Below, piece by piece: positions 24,262-41,883 of a stretch of 41,883 bases of DNA. How positions within the stretch are numbered: position 1 is the first letter of the stretch; each line of letters begins with the position of its first letter. Below the pieces are notes generated by a model, which did no database searches, was not told where the DNA came from, and saw nothing but the letters and a program-made list of their open reading frames with translations. This stretch comes from Deltaproteobacteria bacterium (lineage in GTDB: Bacteria; Myxococcota; SpSt-1050): NCBI GenBank assembly GCA_026416535.1, contig JAOAFA010000110.1, positions 1-41,883 on the forward strand, given 5' to 3'. The position numbers and the translations under genes were made by a program.

Positions 24262-24287
24262 AAAAAAAGAGCGGCTAACCGCCGCTC
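24262..24287 (-). terminator. Rho-independent terminator of the thioredoxin-fold lipoprotein gene
   Basis: On the minus strand a 7-base-pair GC-rich stem, GAGCGGC (24287-24281) with GCCGCTC (24275-24269), encloses a 5-base loop and is followed at once by seven Ts (24268-24262). It lies about 30 bases past the TAG of the 24318-25907 gene. There is no T-run in the plus direction. Confidence 0.88.
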
Positions 24288-24317
24288 CAATTAAAAACAG
24301 ATATTTGTCAAAAATAC

Positions 24318-25907
24318 CTATTTACCACAAGATCCTTGAACTTTCTGGTCTTGAGAAAGTTTATTCTCACAACCAGCTTGCCCTTGATTGTACTTACAAT
24401 AATTATTTTTTATGGTCTCGGCATCAATCCCACCAAACTGATATTTGTTATTTGCAAGGAATGTTGGACTTGCGCTCATACCGGCATTTTTAGCCTCTGT
24501 ATAACTCCTCTTGAGGAGCTCTTTACCTTCTGTATCAAAGCACTTTTGGATTACCTTATCATCAATACCATTACTCCCCGTGCAAGACTTCCAATCATTA
24601 TTTCTATAATCCTTACTTCTACACACTATATAATCCATGTATTTGTAGTTTTTGTTATAATGTTTAATAGCACAGAGCTGCCTGATATTCTCATCTACCT
24701 CAGACTGCCCATGCATAGCCGTCAAAGTACCATCCTCTTTTACATCCCCAATATAATGGATGTTAAACTTTACATCGTTTTTAAAATTTTCCAAAACTTC
24801 CTTCATTGCAATTAGCGCCTTAGCCCCATATGGACATTGAGACATTACAAACACGTCAAGGGTTTTTGGTATCTCTGGGCGACAGACCAGTTTACTTTTG
24901 CATCCATCATCGTCACAATCGACTTTCCCATTATTGTCGTCATCTACCTTATTATCGCAGATTTCAGCTGTCGGATCAAAGGAACCGCCTATCGCCAGAG
25001 AATAGTATTTATCCCCGACAGGCCTTAACCATCTCTCTAATGCACTCTTCCCTTCTTTATCTTCGTCAAGAGACTTAGTAAACAGGATTATGGGTAAGTA
25101 CTTCATATCTGGGTTTAGAGTTGTTAATTCTTTATATAAAGACTTACCCTCGTCCGTCATATAATCTACCTTTTTAACTACAAGTCCCTCAACATCGCTT
25201 CTTATCCTACCCTCCAGCCTGTCTATGTTACAATCTTGACATCTCTTATCACTAAAAAATATAGCATCAACCTTAGGTGCAACAGGTAAATTATTGCATG
25301 CATCAGGTTTTTTACCTTGATATGTATCGCAAATCGCCTTGAGGAAATTAGAGGTCTTTCTACCGCCACTATAGGGTTGACCATTGAGAAACATAGTTGG
25401 TGAGCCTCTAGCATTCCTCTTATTTGCCTCCTCATAGGATTTTGCCAAAAGTTCTTTCCCCTCCTTACCCTCTAAACACCCTTTGATTTTCTGTGGGTTC
25501 ATACCGCTCTCTTTGGCACACGATTCCCAATTCTTAGCAACCTCTCTATAATTCTTGTTTTGGCACAATAAAAACTTCATATATGTCTTCGGATAATGCT
25601 TCATTGCACATAGTTGAGCAATATTACCCTTTACTTCATCCTCTCCATGCATAGCCGTAAAATTTCCATCGGCTGTCTTACTAACAATGTAATTGATTCT
25701 AAGGTCTAGATTAGGTCCCAACTTTTCTACCACCGGCGCAATGGCATTTACAACTTGAACTCCGTATGGACATTGAGACATAATATAAAACTCTAGGACA
25801 GCAGGCTTATCAACAACCTTTTTTACACTGCTTCCACCATCAGATTTACAACCTAAAAATACAAACAGGGCAATTGCCAAACATGCCAACATAATTCTTT
25901 TCATCAT
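24318..25907 (-). CDS. Lipoprotein with three thioredoxin-like folds (two GILT/DsbA-like, one central CxxC)
   Basis: 529 residues. MMKRIMLACLAIALFVFLGC is a lipoprotein signal (lipobox FLGC, C20). Domain 1 (about 36-205) has MSQCPYG at 43-49, and MHGEDEVKGNIAQLC at 87-100 recalls the GILT signature (HGxxxCxxNxxxxC) with one Cys replaced. Domain 2 (about 213-310) has a dithiol C223QDC226. A short acidic Cys-rich loop (DNKVDDDNNGKVDCDDDG, about 318-335) resembles calcium-binding motifs of Myxococcota secreted proteins. Domain 3 (about 348-520) repeats domain 1, with SQCPYG and MHGQSEVDENIRQLC. The outer domains have CPYG, a single active-site Cys rather than CxxC. Role inferred: envelope thiol-disulfide chemistry. 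It has its own promoter and terminator and ends with TAG. Confidence 0.8.
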   Translation of the reverse strand: MMKRIMLACLAIALFVFLGCKSDGGSSVKKVVDKPAVLEFYIMSQCPYGVQVVNAIAPVVEKLGPNLDLRINYIVSKTADGNFTAMHGEDEVKGNIAQLCAMKHYPKTYMKFLLCQNKNYREVAKNWESCAKESGMNPQKIKGCLEGKEGKELLAKSYEEANKRNARGSPTMFLNGQPYSGGRKTSNFLKAICDTYQGKKPDACNNLPVAPKVDAIFFSDKRCQDCNIDRLEGRIRSDVEGLVVKKVDYMTDEGKSLYKELTTLNPDMKYLPIILFTKSLDEDKEGKSALERWLRPVGDKYYSLAIGGSFDPTAEICDNKVDDDNNGKVDCDDDGCKSKLVCRPEIPKTLDVFVMSQCPYGAKALIAMKEVLENFKNDVKFNIHYIGDVKEDGTLTAMHGQSEVDENIRQLCAIKHYNKNYKYMDYIVCRSKDYRNNDWKSCTGSNGIDDKVIQKCFDTEGKELLKRSYTEAKNAGMSASPTFLANNKYQFGGIDAETIKNNYCKYNQGQAGCENKLSQDQKVQGSCGK

Positions 25908-35458: not shown

Positions 35459-36280
35459 CTATCGCTTCAACCTCAGGATTTTCTTTGCCTCTTCAATTGT
35501 AGCTAAAGGTCTACCTATCTTTTTTGCCATTTCAACAACCTTCTCAACCAATTCAACATTGCCTTTTGCCAAAACCCCTTTCTCAATATATATGTTATCT
35601 TCAAGGCCTACCCTTACATGCCCCCCTTTTTTAATAGCGAGTTCAGCCATACTAAATTCATGCCTACCTATGCCTGCTACTGACCACGTTGAGTCTTCCG
35701 GCAGCCTTGAAATCAAAAAATCTAAAAGGGACTCATCTGCCCCCATGGCACCTGGGACACCCATTACAAAGTCAAAATGAAGCGGAGGCATCAACACACC
35801 TTGCTTAATCAACAATTTGGCATTATCAATAAATCCCACATCGAATATCTCTATTTCAGGAACAATATCTCTCTCCCTCATCGTTTGAGCCAATCTCCTA
35901 ATCAGTGGAAATGGATTAGAAAATACCTCATCTCCAAAATTACATGTCCCTACCGTCAGAGATGCCATCTGAGGGTTTAACTCTAATGGTTGAGCCCTCT
36001 CCTCCGCTGTCATCCAAACTGCCCCACCCGTAGATACTTGTATGATAATATCCGTCCTTTTCCTTATCTCTTCGATGGCTCTTCTAAAAAATTCTTTATC
36101 TTGAGTAGGTGTACCATCATCTTTTCTTACATGAAGATGAATCATACACGCCCCTGCCTCACGAACTCTTTTTGCCTCCTCTCCAATCTCCTCCGCAGTT
36201 ATCGGTAAATAAGGTGTCTGCTCTCTAGTAGTCTCCGCACCTACCGCTGCAACAGTAATTATTAGTGGATCTCTGTTCAT
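35459..36280 (-). CDS. kce: 3-keto-5-aminohexanoate cleavage enzyme (BKACE family)
   Basis: 273 residues. Kce condenses 3-keto-5-aminohexanoate with acetyl-CoA to give acetoacetate and 3-aminobutyryl-CoA in lysine fermentation. The TIM barrel shows the zinc ligands in MIHLHVRKDDGTPTQD, then STGGAVWMTAEERAQPL, EIEIFDVGF, FDFVMGVPGAMGAD, WSVAGIGRHEF and GGHVRVGLEDNIYI, the full BKACE set. Homologues use other beta-keto acids, but its place directly after kamE makes the lysine substrate likely. Stop codon TAG. Thirteen bases separate it from the end of kamE. Confidence 0.9.
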   Translation of the reverse strand: MNRDPLIITVAAVGAETTREQTPYLPITAEEIGEEAKRVREAGACMIHLHVRKDDGTPTQDKEFFRRAIEEIRKRTDIIIQVSTGGAVWMTAEERAQPLELNPQMASLTVGTCNFGDEVFSNPFPLIRRLAQTMRERDIVPEIEIFDVGFIDNAKLLIKQGVLMPPLHFDFVMGVPGAMGADESLLDFLISRLPEDSTWSVAGIGRHEFSMAELAIKKGGHVRVGLEDNIYIEKGVLAKGNVELVEKVVEMAKKIGRPLATIEEAKKILRLKR

Positions 36281-36293
36281 CTCCTAACCTCCA

Positions 36294-36749
36294 TTACTTA
36301 TCCTTAAGTTCTAACATTCTAGCATAAATATAACTAGCAACTTCAGATGGCTTTGTTCCAGCACCAAAGCCGGCATCAAAACCTAATGATACCGCTAATG
36401 GATGGTCTATCCTCGGACCACCAAGAATCAATATAAATTTCCCTCTTAGTCCTCTTTCCTCAATCTTCCTTATGAAATCTTGCGAATTTTCTTTATGAAT
36501 ATTTCTCTGAGTTACAACTTGAGAAAGTAATATGGCATCAGCATTCACACTTATTGCCTTTTCAATCAGTGTATCATTTGAAATCTGAGCTCCCAAATTA
36601 TAAACCTCGAACCACTTATATCTTTCGAGACCATAATCACCAGCATACCCTTTCATATTCAAAATAGCATCTATACCTACAGTATGGGCATCAGACCCAG
36701 TACACGCCCCAACAACTTTTATCTTCTTACCTATATTTTTAGCAATCAA
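36294..36749 (-). CDS. kamE: Lysine 5,6-aminomutase beta subunit, C-terminal (cobalamin/PLP) part
   Basis: Corresponds to the Rossmann-type cobalamin domain of KamE. It has the base-off/His-on motif SDAHTVGIDAI (DxHxxG) and NMKGYAGDYGLE, whose Lys equals the PLP-binding Lys of the Clostridium enzyme (11 residues after the His, as expected), then VTQRNIH and ILGGPRIDHPLA. The frame is continuous with the N-terminal half upstream, broken only by the UAG at 36770-36768. The TTG at 36749 is the first possible start after the stop, but I see no convincing ribosome binding site for it. Whether this part is made separately, by readthrough, or not at all is open. Confidence 0.8.
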   Translation of the reverse strand: MIAKNIGKKIKVVGACTGSDAHTVGIDAILNMKGYAGDYGLERYKWFEVYNLGAQISNDTLIEKAISVNADAILLSQVVTQRNIHKENSQDFIRKIEERGLRGKFILILGGPRIDHPLAVSLGFDAGFGAGTKPSEVASYIYARMLELKDK

Positions 36750-36767
36750 TTCGTCAAGTTCATCTCT

Positions 36768-37043
36768 CTAAAAAATTGTAAAGTCAACAACATGTGTCTC
36801 AATTTTATCTACATCAAGCACCACATCCGAGTGTCCATAGACCACAAACATTGTAAATCCCTCGCCCACTCTCTCAACAGTTGTAACATTTACATCTCTA
36901 AGTCCTAACTTCTCAGCATAAATCTTTCCAATCTGTTTTGCCTTTTGACTATACTCCACAGGGAGGGTAAAAGAGACCTGAATCACACCATCATCTTTTC
37001 TATCTCCATAAGCCTTTATTAGATTTGAGAATAGCTGGCTCAT
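36768..37043 (-). CDS. kamE: Lysine 5,6-aminomutase beta subunit, N-terminal (dimerisation) part, ending at an in-frame UAG
   Basis: 91 residues matching the N-terminal dimerisation domain of KamE: YGDRKDDGVIQVSFTLPVEYS, KQIGKIYAEKLGLRDVNV and EGFTMFVVYGHSDVVLD (the first run abbreviated to under 20 here as DDGVIQVSFTLP). It starts with ATGA overlapping the kamD stop and has GGAGGGG upstream. After DFTIF the codon is TAG, and the same frame then continues RDELDE and on into the cobalamin domain. Ignoring the UAG the protein is 249 residues, close to the normal KamE length of about 260. The affected residue lies in the linker, not in the active site. Confidence 0.85.
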   Translation of the reverse strand: MSQLFSNLIKAYGDRKDDGVIQVSFTLPVEYSQKAKQIGKIYAEKLGLRDVNVTTVERVGEGFTMFVVYGHSDVVLDVDKIETHVVDFTIF

Positions 37044-38605
37044 CTCTCCCCTCCAGTCTTTTTGAAAAGGATATCAAATACTGGGTTAAAATAATTTTGA
37101 CCAACCCTATAGACCCCATCCAAACCTTTACCAGATTCTGGGAATCTTTTAATATCTGCAAATTCACCGTGCGAAATGGCTTTATCAAGTCCCTCCTCTC
37201 TGACCTTTTTCAACAGTTCAAAAGCCTTTAACAACACCTCTTCGGCCCTCCGATTAATAAGAGAATCTCTCTTTATAGTAATTTGAGATGCAAAATTGCT
37301 CACAGCATTAAAAATGTAATTTACATTCTTTAAACTCTCGTATCTATCCATAATCAAAGGATTATGCATAGCCTCAGTCATCATACCTAACAGATGTATA
37401 TGTTGATCGGTTATCTTGCTTGTAAAGTTAAACATCGCATCCAAAAGATTACTATAGAAAGGATCACCTGTCATATGTTTTGTAGGAGGCATATATTTTA
37501 TAGGTGATCTAGGGAATATTCGTCTAATAAGTAGAGCTTGAGCCAGCTCGAGTGAAAAAGAATCCTCCACCTGAGGATTAATCTCAAAGGCGTGCCCTAA
37601 ACCCATATATTCAGATTTCATACCGGCAAGCTTAGCAAACGCCTCATTAATAAAGAGACTCGTAAGAACCGTATGTGCCTTCTCGATAGCATCTGAAGTA
37701 GTAAGGTAGTTGTCTTCTCCGGTATTTATAATTATCTTGGATATTGCACAGATCATCCTCGAAAAGAACTGGTCACAAAAGGTTCGTCTCATATTGATGT
37801 CTCTAAACAGGATGCCATACATAGCGTCATTCAATAATATATCCAACCCCTCAAAGGCACCCAAAAAGGCTATCTCCGGCATACAAAGTCCACTTGAATA
37901 ATTAGTAAGATAGATATATCTTCCAAGCCTTTTAGAGGTCTCATCTAGCGCACTCCTCATTATCCTAAAATTTTCTTGAGTTGCATATGTCCCACCATAA
38001 CCCTCAGTGGTAGCACCCTCTGGGACATAGTCAAGAAGAGATTGAGCTGTGGACCTAATGACAGCTATGATATCGGCACCAGCCTCCGCAGCCGCCTTAG
38101 CCTGTATCACATCATCATAAATATTCCCAGTCGCAACTATGAGATACCTCAAAGGTGTCTTTTGTGGTTTAAAGGACCTCTTGAATTCCTCCCTCTTTTT
38201 TCTCCTCTTTATAAGTTCATTATACTTTGAAATAGCTAATTTTTCTATATCCCCCTTCGCTTTCTCTACAGATTCCGCGCTTGGAGGTATGGTCGATAAT
38301 GTCCCATCAAACACAATATTGGTGGCAGAATAAAAATCTACTCCAGTTACAGCCATCTCTCTTGCTATTGCATATAGAACACCATCCTTTATATCAGAAT
38401 CTTTTTTTACCTTTTCCACTATCGCATTTACCTTGGGTTGACCAAACGAAGTTGAACCCTCAACACCAAGGAATCTCAAGGTTGTGCGCTCAATTGAATC
38501 AGTTGAAAAGCCCTTTATAAACCTTTTGTAAATATCATAAGCTATCTGTGTTGCATATTCTCTCGACTTAGCAACAATCTGTCTATCATATCTAATTTTC
38601 AACAT
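37040..38605 (-). CDS. kamD: Lysine 5,6-aminomutase alpha subunit
   Basis: 521 residues, full length. With KamE it moves the terminal amino group of D-lysine or L-beta-lysine to carbon 5, using adenosylcobalamin and PLP. Recognisable KamD stretches are TTLRFLGVEGSTSFGQPKVN, YLIVATGNIYDDVIQAKAAAEAGADIIAVIRSTAQSLLDYVPEGATTEGYGGTYATQENF (landmarks RSTAQSLLDYVPEGAT and EGYGGTYATQENF), GLCMPEIAFLGAFEGLD and PTKHMTGDPFYSNLLDAMFNF (landmark TKHMTGD). No lesion is visible. It lies 3 bases after kamA and overlaps kamE by 4 bases. Confidence 0.93.
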   Translation of the reverse strand: MLKIRYDRQIVAKSREYATQIAYDIYKRFIKGFSTDSIERTTLRFLGVEGSTSFGQPKVNAIVEKVKKDSDIKDGVLYAIAREMAVTGVDFYSATNIVFDGTLSTIPPSAESVEKAKGDIEKLAISKYNELIKRRKKREEFKRSFKPQKTPLRYLIVATGNIYDDVIQAKAAAEAGADIIAVIRSTAQSLLDYVPEGATTEGYGGTYATQENFRIMRSALDETSKRLGRYIYLTNYSSGLCMPEIAFLGAFEGLDILLNDAMYGILFRDINMRRTFCDQFFSRMICAISKIIINTGEDNYLTTSDAIEKAHTVLTSLFINEAFAKLAGMKSEYMGLGHAFEINPQVEDSFSLELAQALLIRRIFPRSPIKYMPPTKHMTGDPFYSNLLDAMFNFTSKITDQHIHLLGMMTEAMHNPLIMDRYESLKNVNYIFNAVSNFASQITIKRDSLINRRAEEVLLKAFELLKKVREEGLDKAISHGEFADIKRFPESGKGLDGVYRVGQNYFNPVFDILFKKTGGER

Positions 38606-38608
38606 CCT

Positions 38609-39841
38609 CTACTCCTTAGGTTCAATTGAAACTTTCCTCTTGTCAAACAAGTGTCCCAAACCCTCCGGAGAATGCGCAACAGGATCTTTCTCATAATCTT
38701 TCTCCGTAACACATGTGCAATCTTTTTCTACGGGATCCTGATAAATTGATATAAATCCCTTATAATTTCTAAAAATTGTTGCATTCTCACTCATAGAGAT
38801 CAAATAATTCGGGAATATAGGAACCTTTCCACCACCACCCGGCATATCAACAACAAGCGTAGGAACAGCCAGACCTGATGTATGCCCCCGCATCCTCTCA
38901 ATTATCTCAAATCCCTTAGATACTGGTGTTCGAAAATGCTCGATCCCTTCAGAAAGGTCACATTGAAAGATATAATATGGCCTAACGCGTATCTTCAAAA
39001 GCAGATGACACAGTTTCTTCATTATTACGTAGGAGCTATTAATCCTTCTAAGTAAAACAGATTGATTTGAGACAACAACACCACCATCAGAGAGTCTCTC
39101 ACAAGCAATCTTTGATTCTTCCGTAACCTCTCTTGGGTGATTAAAATGTGTATTCAGGTAAATTGGATGATACTTTTTAAGCATTCTTACCAAATTATCA
39201 GTAATTCTCATTGGTAAAACGACCGGTGTCCTAGATCCAATTCTGATTATCTCCACATGTTTTATATCCCTCAATCTTTTCACAATATATTCAATGTGTT
39301 CATCAGAAGTTGTGAGTGGATCTCCGCCTGAAATAACCACATCTCTTACACGCTTGTTCCTTTTAATATACTCAAATGCCCTTTCGAGTTCACTAATCTT
39401 TCTTGGTTTATCGACCTGACCAACTAACCTCCTTCTCGTACAGAACCTACAATACATCGAACATTGATCTGTTACCAAGAACAAAACCCTATCTGGATAT
39501 CTATGTACTAGATTGGGTGCAACCATATCCCGATCTTCTGCTAATGGATCATGCAGATCCGCCTTGGATTTATGAGTTTCATAGATCGTAGGAACCGCCT
39601 GCATTCTAATAGGGCATAGAGGGTCTTTTTCGTCCATTAGAGAGGCATAATAAGGCGTAATAGCCATTCTATAAGTTTTGAGAACTCTTTTTATCCCTTC
39701 CTTCTCATCGCTTGTAAGGCTAATTATCTTTTCCAAATCTTCCAGTCTCGTTATCCTGTTTCTTATCTGCCACTGCCAATTATTCCACTCTGACTCAGAA
39801 GGATTATTAAAAAACTTTCTCATTCTCTTTGACAATTTCAT
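38609..39841 (-). CDS. kamA: Lysine 2,3-aminomutase
   Basis: 410 residues from the ATG at 39841, which has AAGGAGG nine bases upstream; an ATG at 39850 is in frame but directly abuts that site. It is a radical SAM enzyme making L-beta-lysine, the first step of the pathway. The cluster motif is CSMYCRFCTRRRLVG (C127, C131, C134), followed by VISGGDPLTTSDEHI. The PLP-binding Lys lies in MPGGGGKVPIFPNYLIS, and the C-terminus keeps paired cysteines (DCTC). EF-P-modifying EpmB paralogues are shorter; length and kam neighbours support lysine catabolism. Stop codon TAG. Confidence 0.92.
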   Translation of the reverse strand: MKLSKRMRKFFNNPSESEWNNWQWQIRNRITRLEDLEKIISLTSDEKEGIKRVLKTYRMAITPYYASLMDEKDPLCPIRMQAVPTIYETHKSKADLHDPLAEDRDMVAPNLVHRYPDRVLFLVTDQCSMYCRFCTRRRLVGQVDKPRKISELERAFEYIKRNKRVRDVVISGGDPLTTSDEHIEYIVKRLRDIKHVEIIRIGSRTPVVLPMRITDNLVRMLKKYHPIYLNTHFNHPREVTEESKIACERLSDGGVVVSNQSVLLRRINSSYVIMKKLCHLLLKIRVRPYYIFQCDLSEGIEHFRTPVSKGFEIIERMRGHTSGLAVPTLVVDMPGGGGKVPIFPNYLISMSENATIFRNYKGFISIYQDPVEKDCTCVTEKDYEKDPVAHSPEGLGHLFDKRKVSIEPKE

Positions 39842-40164
39842 AACTCTCATCCTCCTTCACAGAGATATCTACTAATATCAAAAATTCAAGCAATATCAAA
39901 TTCTAAAATATAAAAAATGAGCATTTTTGCAGTCTTGTAGAAACATGTAACTGTTTAGGGAATACTTCTATGCTAACAACAGATAAAATTTGCTACAACA
40001 CTATAAATCTCACAACCCAAAAATTTATCTACGTTTGATAACCCTATTTAGATTCAAATGCAAACAAAGGATAAGAAACAGGATTACTAAACTAATTCAC
40101 ATTAAAAAAGGATGAGATGCAATTGACTTAAATCCGAGAACAGATCTTTTAAACTATAAAAAGT
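39842..40164. other. Upstream region of the kam operon, no gene
   Basis: AT-rich, without a supported reading frame. It holds the kamA ribosome binding site, the candidate promoter at 39872-39899 and, at its far end, the terminator of the beta-propeller gene. I see no riboswitch consensus; in particular I could not recognise the conserved features of lysine or cobalamin riboswitches. Confidence 0.4.
39872..39899 (-). promoter_or_regulatory. Predicted promoter of the kam operon
   Basis: On the minus strand TTGATA (39899-39894) and TATTAG (39877-39872) are 16 bases apart, about 30 bases before the kamA ATG. The -10 is two bases off TATAAT. It is the best pair in this AT-rich leader but not a unique choice. 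Confidence 0.4.
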
Positions 40165-40228: not shown

Positions 40229-41864
40229 TTACCTTAGACTTATCACCTGAACACCATAAGGACCGGCGGTCACATAGGCTTTATTTTCAAACGCTGTTAC
40301 ATTTTCTGCTGAGGTCCAACCATCCGTCCGATAAAATCCTTCGAACTCGGGGAAGAGTGGATCTGTCAATTTATACACCAATAACCCAGAGACATAATCA
40401 TAAGCTGTAATAAACAATCTATCAGAGACAATCCTCATCGAACTTGTGCTGTTATTTTTCAATGAAATCGACGAGCTCACATTAATATTTTCTGGATCCA
40501 CTAGATTAACAGTCTTCAGGAGATTAGAATACCTATAATCTTCATATTTTTCACTCCAACTATGAGTAAATAATGTATAGTAGAATTTTTCATCTTTTAC
40601 AACATAACCACCGATGTATGTATATAAGTTATCACTTGCTGCAGGTAATATCTCCAATCTATCCTGTAAATAAGCCTTTTCCTCTGTCAGAAGAAGTGTA
40701 TTCAAGTACCCAACTATACGATAGTAATCTTTTGAACTTACATCATATTGGTAATCTATTGTATAAACATAGTGACCACTAAGAGAAGCACCAATTACTG
40801 TCCCTGGTATATTAATGGAGTTTGAAAATTTTACATCATCAAACCTAGATAGATCAGCTACCTTTACATACGCCTTTGCATAACTGTAATTCCCTCCCGT
40901 ATTTAGAGGAACATAATATGTAATATACGCCTTCATGTTTTGGTAAACCAATCCTCCTGGATATGCATTATCTGGGAATTCAATACTAAAATCATCACTT
41001 ACCTCAATACTGCCATCCGATTTAAGTTTAACTTGCTTAAGAATAACAACATACTTGTATCTATAATGACCATCCTCTTCGAAGTACTGGTATTTCAAAT
41101 CTGCAAACACTAGTCTACTCTCATCAAGCTGTTCGGCTACTGAACTATTACCATAACACCCACCACCATAATACCCTCTGTCTATATCCTCTACCCAATT
41201 GCCATACATCATACATCCATAGTCATACCAATTGAAATTCCCAGCAAACTCAGCACTATCAATTAACTTCAGTATAGAATTTTTCAGGGCAAAACTTATT
41301 ATCCTAACCTTGTACTCTCCACCCTTACTATCCCAGACATAACCGACAGCCACAAAATTCTGCCCCACTCTATATAATTTCGAAAAATATCCATTTAGCT
41401 CCAATGACTGATAAGGTTTATAAGTATTCGGATCTGAGAGCGGCACAAGATTTACCTTACTTTTTGGTTTAGCACCCCAGTAATATAGTGTTGTAGTAGA
41501 CAATTCAAGACCATACTTAGTATTTATGGGCATAAAATCAATCACATTCCTAGCCAGGTCAACAGATGAATTCAGGATTGGTTTATCTCTATTAGCTATA
41601 TCAACAACCTGAACCGCCTCATTAGATACGGTAAGTAACTTATTCCCTGCATAAGGTATTCCCCTTTGCACCCATCCAGAGTGATCAACCAGACCTCTCT
41701 TTACAAGACCTCTATTATTCTCATCATTGAAATAATCAATCAATTGTATCCCAGACACATAACTATAATCATTTGATGACCAGGAAGAAAAAGGAACTAT
41801 AATTAGGTTTATTGCATCTAATACTTTGAATGCCTTATGGACGTTATTTATATCACTTGAAACC
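40229..41864 (-). CDS. Beta-propeller domain protein, 5'-truncated by the contig end
   Basis: About 544 residues of genuine sequence; the N-terminus is missing. Repeated blade-like units rich in Tyr, Val and Ile recur, for example KLLTVSNEAVQVVDIANRDKP, RLVFADLKYQYF, YVYTIDYQYD and the C-terminal RLFITAYDYVSGLLVYKLTDP and KAYVTAGPYGVQVISL, which resemble secreted beta-propeller proteins with LVIVD-type or C-terminal propeller domains. Likely exported, but the signal peptide would lie beyond the window. The open frame extends to 41881 only because of adapter bases, which add the artefact peptide MCIRDR. Its own terminator follows. Function unknown. Confidence 0.7.
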
Positions 41865-41883
41865 CTGTCTCTTATACACATCT
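41865..41883. other. Illumina Nextera transposon mosaic-end adapter (artefact)
   Basis: The last 19 bases, CTGTCTCTTATACACATCT, are exactly the reverse complement of the Tn5 mosaic-end sequence used in Nextera library preparation. They are not part of the organism. On the minus strand they create an ATG that falsely starts the last gene with MCIRDR, a peptide well known from untrimmed metagenomic assemblies. Confidence 0.98.

Follow-up and report, generated by a model that had tools for sequence, protein, structure and literature searches.

A GILT-like lipoprotein with single-cysteine CPxG sites and a candidate resolving cysteine on its C-terminal tail

The 41,883-nucleotide stretch of a myxococcotal contig analyzed here (the window) carries on its reverse strand a reading frame (24318-25907) for an exported protein of 529 residues, whose profile matches and fold place it in the GILT-like branch of the DsbA fold, as a variant rather than a GILT. 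Both of its GILT-like domains have a CPxG motif with a lone Cys, and this motif is conserved among its relatives together with a Cys close to the C-terminus (C527), a residue absent from the first-pass annotation of this DNA. Our preferred reading, held tentatively, is that this divergent GILT-like protein carries out thiol-disulfide exchange through an active site divided in two, the resolving Cys of which would be carried on a mobile tail.

Architecture and fold

The features of the gene are listed below; the conservation counts refer to the 82 relatives aligned from the best 80 of 396 loci (80 of them with the first domain), and the count out of 157 to non-redundant proteins.

24318-25907, reverse strand: gene for the GILT-like / thioredoxin-like / acidic repeat / GILT-like / Cys tail protein, 529 aa (Pfam, NCBIfam, structure model)
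25848-25907, reverse strand: signal peptide with lipobox-like FLGC, residues 1-20, C20 (sequence; Cys in this column in 59/82)
25287-25808, reverse strand: D1, first GILT/DsbA-fold domain, residues 34-207 (PF03227 stretch 38-133; 6nwx, Z 21.9)
25761-25772, reverse strand: CPYG of D1, residues 46-49, single Cys C46 (C46, P47, and G49 in 80/80 relatives with D1)
25608-25649, reverse strand: D1 element HG..E....N....C at residues 87-100, its middle Cys replaced by Val (H87, E91, and C100 in 80/80)
24975-25283, reverse strand: central thioredoxin-like domain, residues 209-311 (PDO profile match, model, Foldseek)
25230-25241, reverse strand: central CQDC, residues 223-226 (two Cys in 80/80, spaced by 2-4 residues)
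24873-24974, reverse strand: acidic repeat with four Cys, residues 312-345 (NF033662 at 312-342; four Cys in 82/82)
24360-24872, reverse strand: D3, second GILT/DsbA-fold domain, residues 346-516 (second PF03227 stretch; C358 in 82/82)
24825-24836, reverse strand: CPYG of D3, residues 358-361, single Cys C358 (CP[YF]G in 80/82, CP[YF]A in 2/82)
24321-24359, reverse strand: C-terminal tail, residues 517-529, with C527 at 24327-24329 (Cys column 76/82; Cys within the last four residues in 144/157)
24268-24288, reverse strand: terminator-like hairpin and T run 3' of the gene (hairpin scan)

The first-pass annotation had described a lipoprotein with two GILT/DsbA-like domains bearing CPYG, and this description holds: C20 closes a lipobox-like FLGC, with several of the relatives that lack this Cys showing another N-terminal hydrophobic stretch in its place, and the Pfam GILT profile (PF03227) matches twice, scoring 95.7 bits over the two stretches against a gathering cut-off of 22.4. 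The DsbA-type profiles PF01323 (DSBA; 47.5 vs 25.6 bits) and PF13462 (Thioredoxin_4; 44.6 vs 23.2 bits) also exceed their cut-offs. A whole-protein AlphaFold model, built from 80 sequences, has a mean pLDDT of 94.2, and the top structural match of its D1 is mouse GILT (6nwx; Z 21.9, rmsd 2.2, 174 residues aligned), followed by S. aureus DsbA and then plant VSR1 (9b1r; Z 17.1).

With GILT, the protein has in common the PF03227 profile, the fold, the HG..E....N....C element, and six structural Cys in register; it differs from it in having CPxG (CPYG twice) where GILT has CxxC, in lacking both Cys of the CQHGX2EC part, in the placement of its two domains on either side of a thioredoxin-like domain, and in being membrane-anchored in prokaryotes. 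The accessible text of PMC7017176 gives the GILT signature as CQHGX2ECX2NX4C and the number of conserved Cys as 10-11. The corresponding elements, MHGEDEVKGNIAQLC in D1 and MHGQSEVDENIRQLC in D3, depart from this signature: Val replaces the middle Cys in both, as had been noticed from the sequence earlier, and the Cys preceding HG is missing as well, while each domain has seven Cys. Since CXXC, the signature, and the Cys count are thus all at variance, we do not class the protein as a GILT. Weak similarity to the Rcas_1661 family thioredoxin-like (seleno)lipoprotein (NF041057) extends over residues 87-192 at 27.3 bits, against a cut-off of 190, and membership of either curated family, GILT or Rcas_1661, is rejected, as the defining features of neither are present. 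The DsbA family (PF01323, PF13462), including a CPFC VKOR-DsbA fusion from the same genome, shares the DsbA fold but has a CPxC dithiol, and none of the DsbA-type matches examined has a tail Cys. The TRX domain of the plant vacuolar sorting receptor (PF25011; 9b1r) shares the GILT-like fold and, by description, the same helix-pair disulfides, but differs in its CxxxC site and receptor context.

The central CQDC had been placed on a thioredoxin fold, and structure prediction gave no other fold for it. This domain has no Pfam family match; the profile built from its relatives finds the Pyrococcus protein disulfide oxidoreductases (PDO; 1j08 and 1a8l), the CxxC being in register (E 2.5e-5 and 1.1e-4), and when modeled alone (pLDDT 93.1) it returns Foldseek rows of thioredoxin type, none at E 0.001 or better and the best at Z 6.2. 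It displays a beta-alpha-beta-alpha-beta order, with the Cys pair ahead of helix 1 and a cis-Pro-type Leu-Pro loop that is invariant among the 82 aligned relatives from the best 80 of 396 loci. Several modest signs therefore agree on a thioredoxin-like fold. The 'calcium-type loop' of the first-pass annotation corresponds to a region matching the acidic double-disulfide repeat NF033662, present as one copy (residues 312-342) with its four Cys kept and scoring 23.1 bits, below the cut-off of 41; a putative acidic loop is suggested by the sequence, and its columns are gapped in approximately 19 of the same 82 relatives.

The lone cysteine of CPxG and the cysteine of the tail

Relatives were collected by a scan of named-genome contigs, which retained the best 80 of 396 loci (by record title, 60 from Myxococcota, three from Bdellovibrionota, two from Pseudomonadota, one from Spirochaetota, five archaeal, and nine without a phylum), and by searches of DPANN archaeal genomes (with a profile) and of a Myxococcota-type genome set, both made without the CPxG motif. 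The scan patterns contained CP[YF], in one case with [GA] behind it, so the CPxG rate of the scan is biased, while the tail was part of no pattern. Of the 169 proteins scored, four cut at contig ends and one without a readable motif (L186) were set aside, leaving 164, or 157 at 90% identity; L192, in which the GILT-like domain is internal, was scored as lacking the tail.

In the two motif-independent searches, the second Cys is missing from 103/103 readable archaeal domains and from 46/48 of the Myxococcota-type domains, with CPxG itself in 102/103 and 40/48, respectively (non-redundant); the remainder have A (six), C (two), or V (one) at the last position. CPxG is thus near-universal, and a local loss of the second Cys is rejected, in agreement with the earlier expectation that the single Cys is no local change: homologs with CPYC are limited to D1 of two paralogs in one genome (L036). 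These two nearby paralogs (L036:2394-9986) combine the CPYC of D1 with CPFA in D3 and have no tail Cys.

Each GILT-like domain has seven conserved Cys. Across the alignment of 82 relatives (best 80 of 396 loci), none of the domain Cys varies in proteins that have the region concerned, save for one gap each at positions 504 and 513. In 33 archaeal domains the counterparts of both C115 and C130 are missing, and no domain lacks just one of them (phi 1.0); the counterparts of C193 and C204 have disappeared jointly in a single case, all other cases being gaps. For the GILT-like domain of Arabidopsis VSR1, the accessible text of PMC11052993 describes disulfides between helices 2 and 3, between helices 1 and 4, and between the domain end and the linker. 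Judged from their co-occurrence, and in keeping with that description, the six Cys other than that of CPxG fit three structural disulfides, C115/C130, C193/C204, and, by elimination, C100/C144. With these six paired off, the CPxG Cys (C46 in D1 and C358 in D3) is the odd one of each domain.

A Cys within the last four residues is found in 144 of the 157 non-redundant proteins, as against 136 of 1515 control frames, these being the other frames of at least 250 residues from the same loci, non-gene frames included. Ahead of it lies a linker of median length 16 residues in which Gly, Ala, Ser, Thr, and Pro are abundant; the Cys has Gly behind it in 85 of the 146 proteins counted and is the very last residue in 32. 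Where the last domain has CPxG, a Cys beyond the last domain Cys is present in 148/151 proteins; where it has CPxA, the tail Cys is lost in 5/5 members. On a tree of the last domain, there are four motif changes and five tail changes, and the association is not significant (two independent pairs in the same direction, none in the opposite, one with no difference; p=0.5), so that a link between CPxA and tail loss is only suggestive. The exceptions are the single CPxV member, which retains the tail Cys, and L045 and L056, which have CPYG without it. None of 12 weaker DsbA-type matches (11 with CPFC or CPYC, one with CAYC) has a Cys in the last four residues, although a pair of Cys lies five to six residues before the end of one such control (L026). 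Eukaryotic GILT precursors, which have CxxC, also carry Cys in their C-terminal propeptide; hence, the tail Cys need not be an answer to the loss of the second Cys.

Three proteins show other combinations of parts. L035:1988-4183 has CPFA and CPYA and, as read from its sequence, a solute-binding-protein-like domain in place of the tail. The archaeal L186:365-1900 has CGYG in D1 and a CPWC glutaredoxin-like domain in place of D3 and the tail. In the archaeal L157:1237-2904, a CPFC domain that resembles the Rcas_1661 family takes the place of D1; CPFG is retained in D3, and the tail Cys is present as well.

A candidate split active site and its alternatives

We propose that this membrane-anchored, extracytoplasmic GILT/DsbA-fold protein might perform thiol-disulfide exchange, with the lone CPxG Cys of each GILT-like domain (C46, C358) attacking a substrate disulfide to form a mixed disulfide. 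As the second Cys of CxxC is Gly, the motif alone would be unable to resolve this intermediate, and C527 on the mobile C-terminal arm could do so, most directly for D3; the Gly that usually follows it recalls the Cys-Gly of glutathione. The central dithiol may carry electrons between the arm, D1, and an outside donor, and the net reaction would probably be disulfide reduction or isomerization rather than oxidation. Reports on GILT with a single active-site Cys disagree: in the accessible text of PMC6060088, a mouse CxxS mutant retains a lower activity and a mosquito CxxS GILT has none, whereas that of PMC8302694 states that mutation of either Cys abolishes activity. If the tail Cys does resolve, a thioredoxin-type site can be split, with its halves separated along the chain, and the family would offer a ready-made collection of naturally occurring monothiol sites whose partners are movable.

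The main rival to such a split site, which we consider rather unlikely, holds that the tail Cys forms intermolecular disulfides, with a second copy of the protein or a surface partner, and that CPxG is a holding site, making the protein a chaperone for retention or quality control, on which clients are caught as mixed disulfides in the manner of ERp44 and AGR2. These monothiol PDIs are thought to trap clients in the ER; they are eukaryotic and of another family, and by description have a single-Cys thioredoxin-type site in common with the present protein. A Cys at a free end would suit intermolecular bonds, and the GILT precursor dimerizes via its C-terminal propeptide. The single-Cys sites CRFS (ERp44) and CPHS (AGR2) are listed in the accessible text of PMC12781119. 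The lipid or membrane anchor of many bacterial members would, however, limit diffusion, and the loss of the tail Cys in all of the CPxA members, weak as that link is, would be left without an explanation.

It is less probable still that mixed disulfides on the two outer CPYG domains are resolved by the central dithiol through domain motion, with the tail Cys in a secondary role, essentially the arrangement suggested by the first-pass annotation. Of the 157 non-redundant proteins, 123 have the central domain, always with two Cys, and its Leu-Pro is invariant, as noted above. Nevertheless, 34 archaeal single-domain relatives have no central domain, and CPxG is kept in 34/34 of these and a Cys in the last six residues in 33/34, which makes the tail a likelier partner of the lone Cys than the central dithiol; this tells against the earlier idea that one dithiol serves two single-Cys domains. 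Archaeal proteins with the central domain and one scored GILT-like domain have the tail Cys in 14/14 cases. Moreover, the spacing of the central Cys pair drifts (CX2C in 99, CX3C in 13, and CX4C in 11 of 123), which is unusual for a fixed catalytic dithiol. The central dithiol may be a relay or be partly structural.

We regard it as very improbable that the single Cys, with nearby Met and His, binds a metal or haem in a metallochaperone or sensor devoid of redox activity. Met43-Ser44-x-Cys46-Pro47 and His87 of D1, with their D3 equivalents, are indeed near-invariant among relatives from the best 80 of 396 loci; yet, the cis-Pro-type loop of D1 (S169, P170) is kept in 80/80 relatives with D1 from the same loci, as expected for thiol chemistry, and the neighbor clusters listed for the 80 loci include no conserved neighbor gene. 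Least credible is that both CPYG domains are dead folds that serve only in binding, a re-use of the fold that the VSR1 authors leave open for the plant GILT-like domain (accessible text of PMC11052993), as C46 and C358 are invariant though unpaired, and their loss could be expected if the sites were dead.

Phyletic spread and genomic context

A search for the same architecture, a check named in the first-pass annotation, recovers the full-length protein in 18 of 146 related genomes (the Myxococcota-type set), and all GILT-profile matches of the 146 fall in those same 18; searched with a profile, 195 genomes of the phylum gave 21, and a profile search of a DPANN archaeal phylum finds a relative in 107 of 279 genomes. 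GILT-like proteins are thus common in Myxococcota and DPANN archaea. Simple contamination as the source of the archaeal loci is rejected in view of this spread and of the contig neighbors of L071, which we take to be fibrillarin and Nop5. A 2008 survey states in its accessible text (PMC2398784) that prokaryotic GILT homologs were not known, and among the open-licence papers listed no title or abstract start concerns this GILT-like family, nor was an assay of the family found there.

The gene stands alone in the window. It had been said to lie between its own promoter and terminator: a terminator-like hairpin does follow it (two hairpins with a T run in the region vs 1.2 expected in shuffles), but promoter-like matches are not above chance (five found vs 7.1 expected). 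A conserved operon partner is rejected, as clustering of the neighbors of the 80 loci reveals no family adjacent throughout among the clusters listed, the top one being kinase-like, in 16 of 80 loci and on both strands. A frame resembling thioredoxin reductase lies 1.1 kb behind L071; among the locus frames it is seen only there and in the overlapping L150.

The earlier statement that no VKOR partner is present holds within the window; the genome's only VKOR match, a VKOR fused to a CPFC DsbA domain (L230:763-1992), is on another contig (C94), and the genome also has two DsbD_TM matches. VKOR as a fixed partner is rejected for the Myxococcota-type set (16/18 positive vs 91/128 negative genomes; p=0.16), and both VKOR and DsbD are rejected in that role for the DPANN phylum, where each is rarer when a relative is present: with relatedness ignored, VKOR occurs in 29/107 genomes with a relative vs 110/172 without (p=2e-9) and DsbD_TM in 44/107 vs 105/172 (p=0.001). 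From these distributions, neither seems to be required by the protein, and it is encoded in the small genomes G133 and G134, which have neither a VKOR nor a DsbD_TM match. On a broader and more doubtful view, these might be widespread prokaryotic exported thiol-disulfide enzymes whose resolving Cys has moved from CxxC to a C-terminal Cys-Gly arm, akin to a tethered glutathione, and which in DPANN archaea tend to occur where VKOR is missing, perhaps as part of a VKOR-independent disulfide pathway. The anti-association with VKOR makes disulfide handling in such archaeal cells a testable question.

Elsewhere in the window, the contig end (41865-41883) is identical to the mosaic end of the Nextera transposase adapter, so that the frame 40229-41881 begins with adapter-derived residues, a sequencing artifact. 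The frames at 35459-39850 resemble lysine fermentation genes and are, we assume, an aminomutase and its neighbors.
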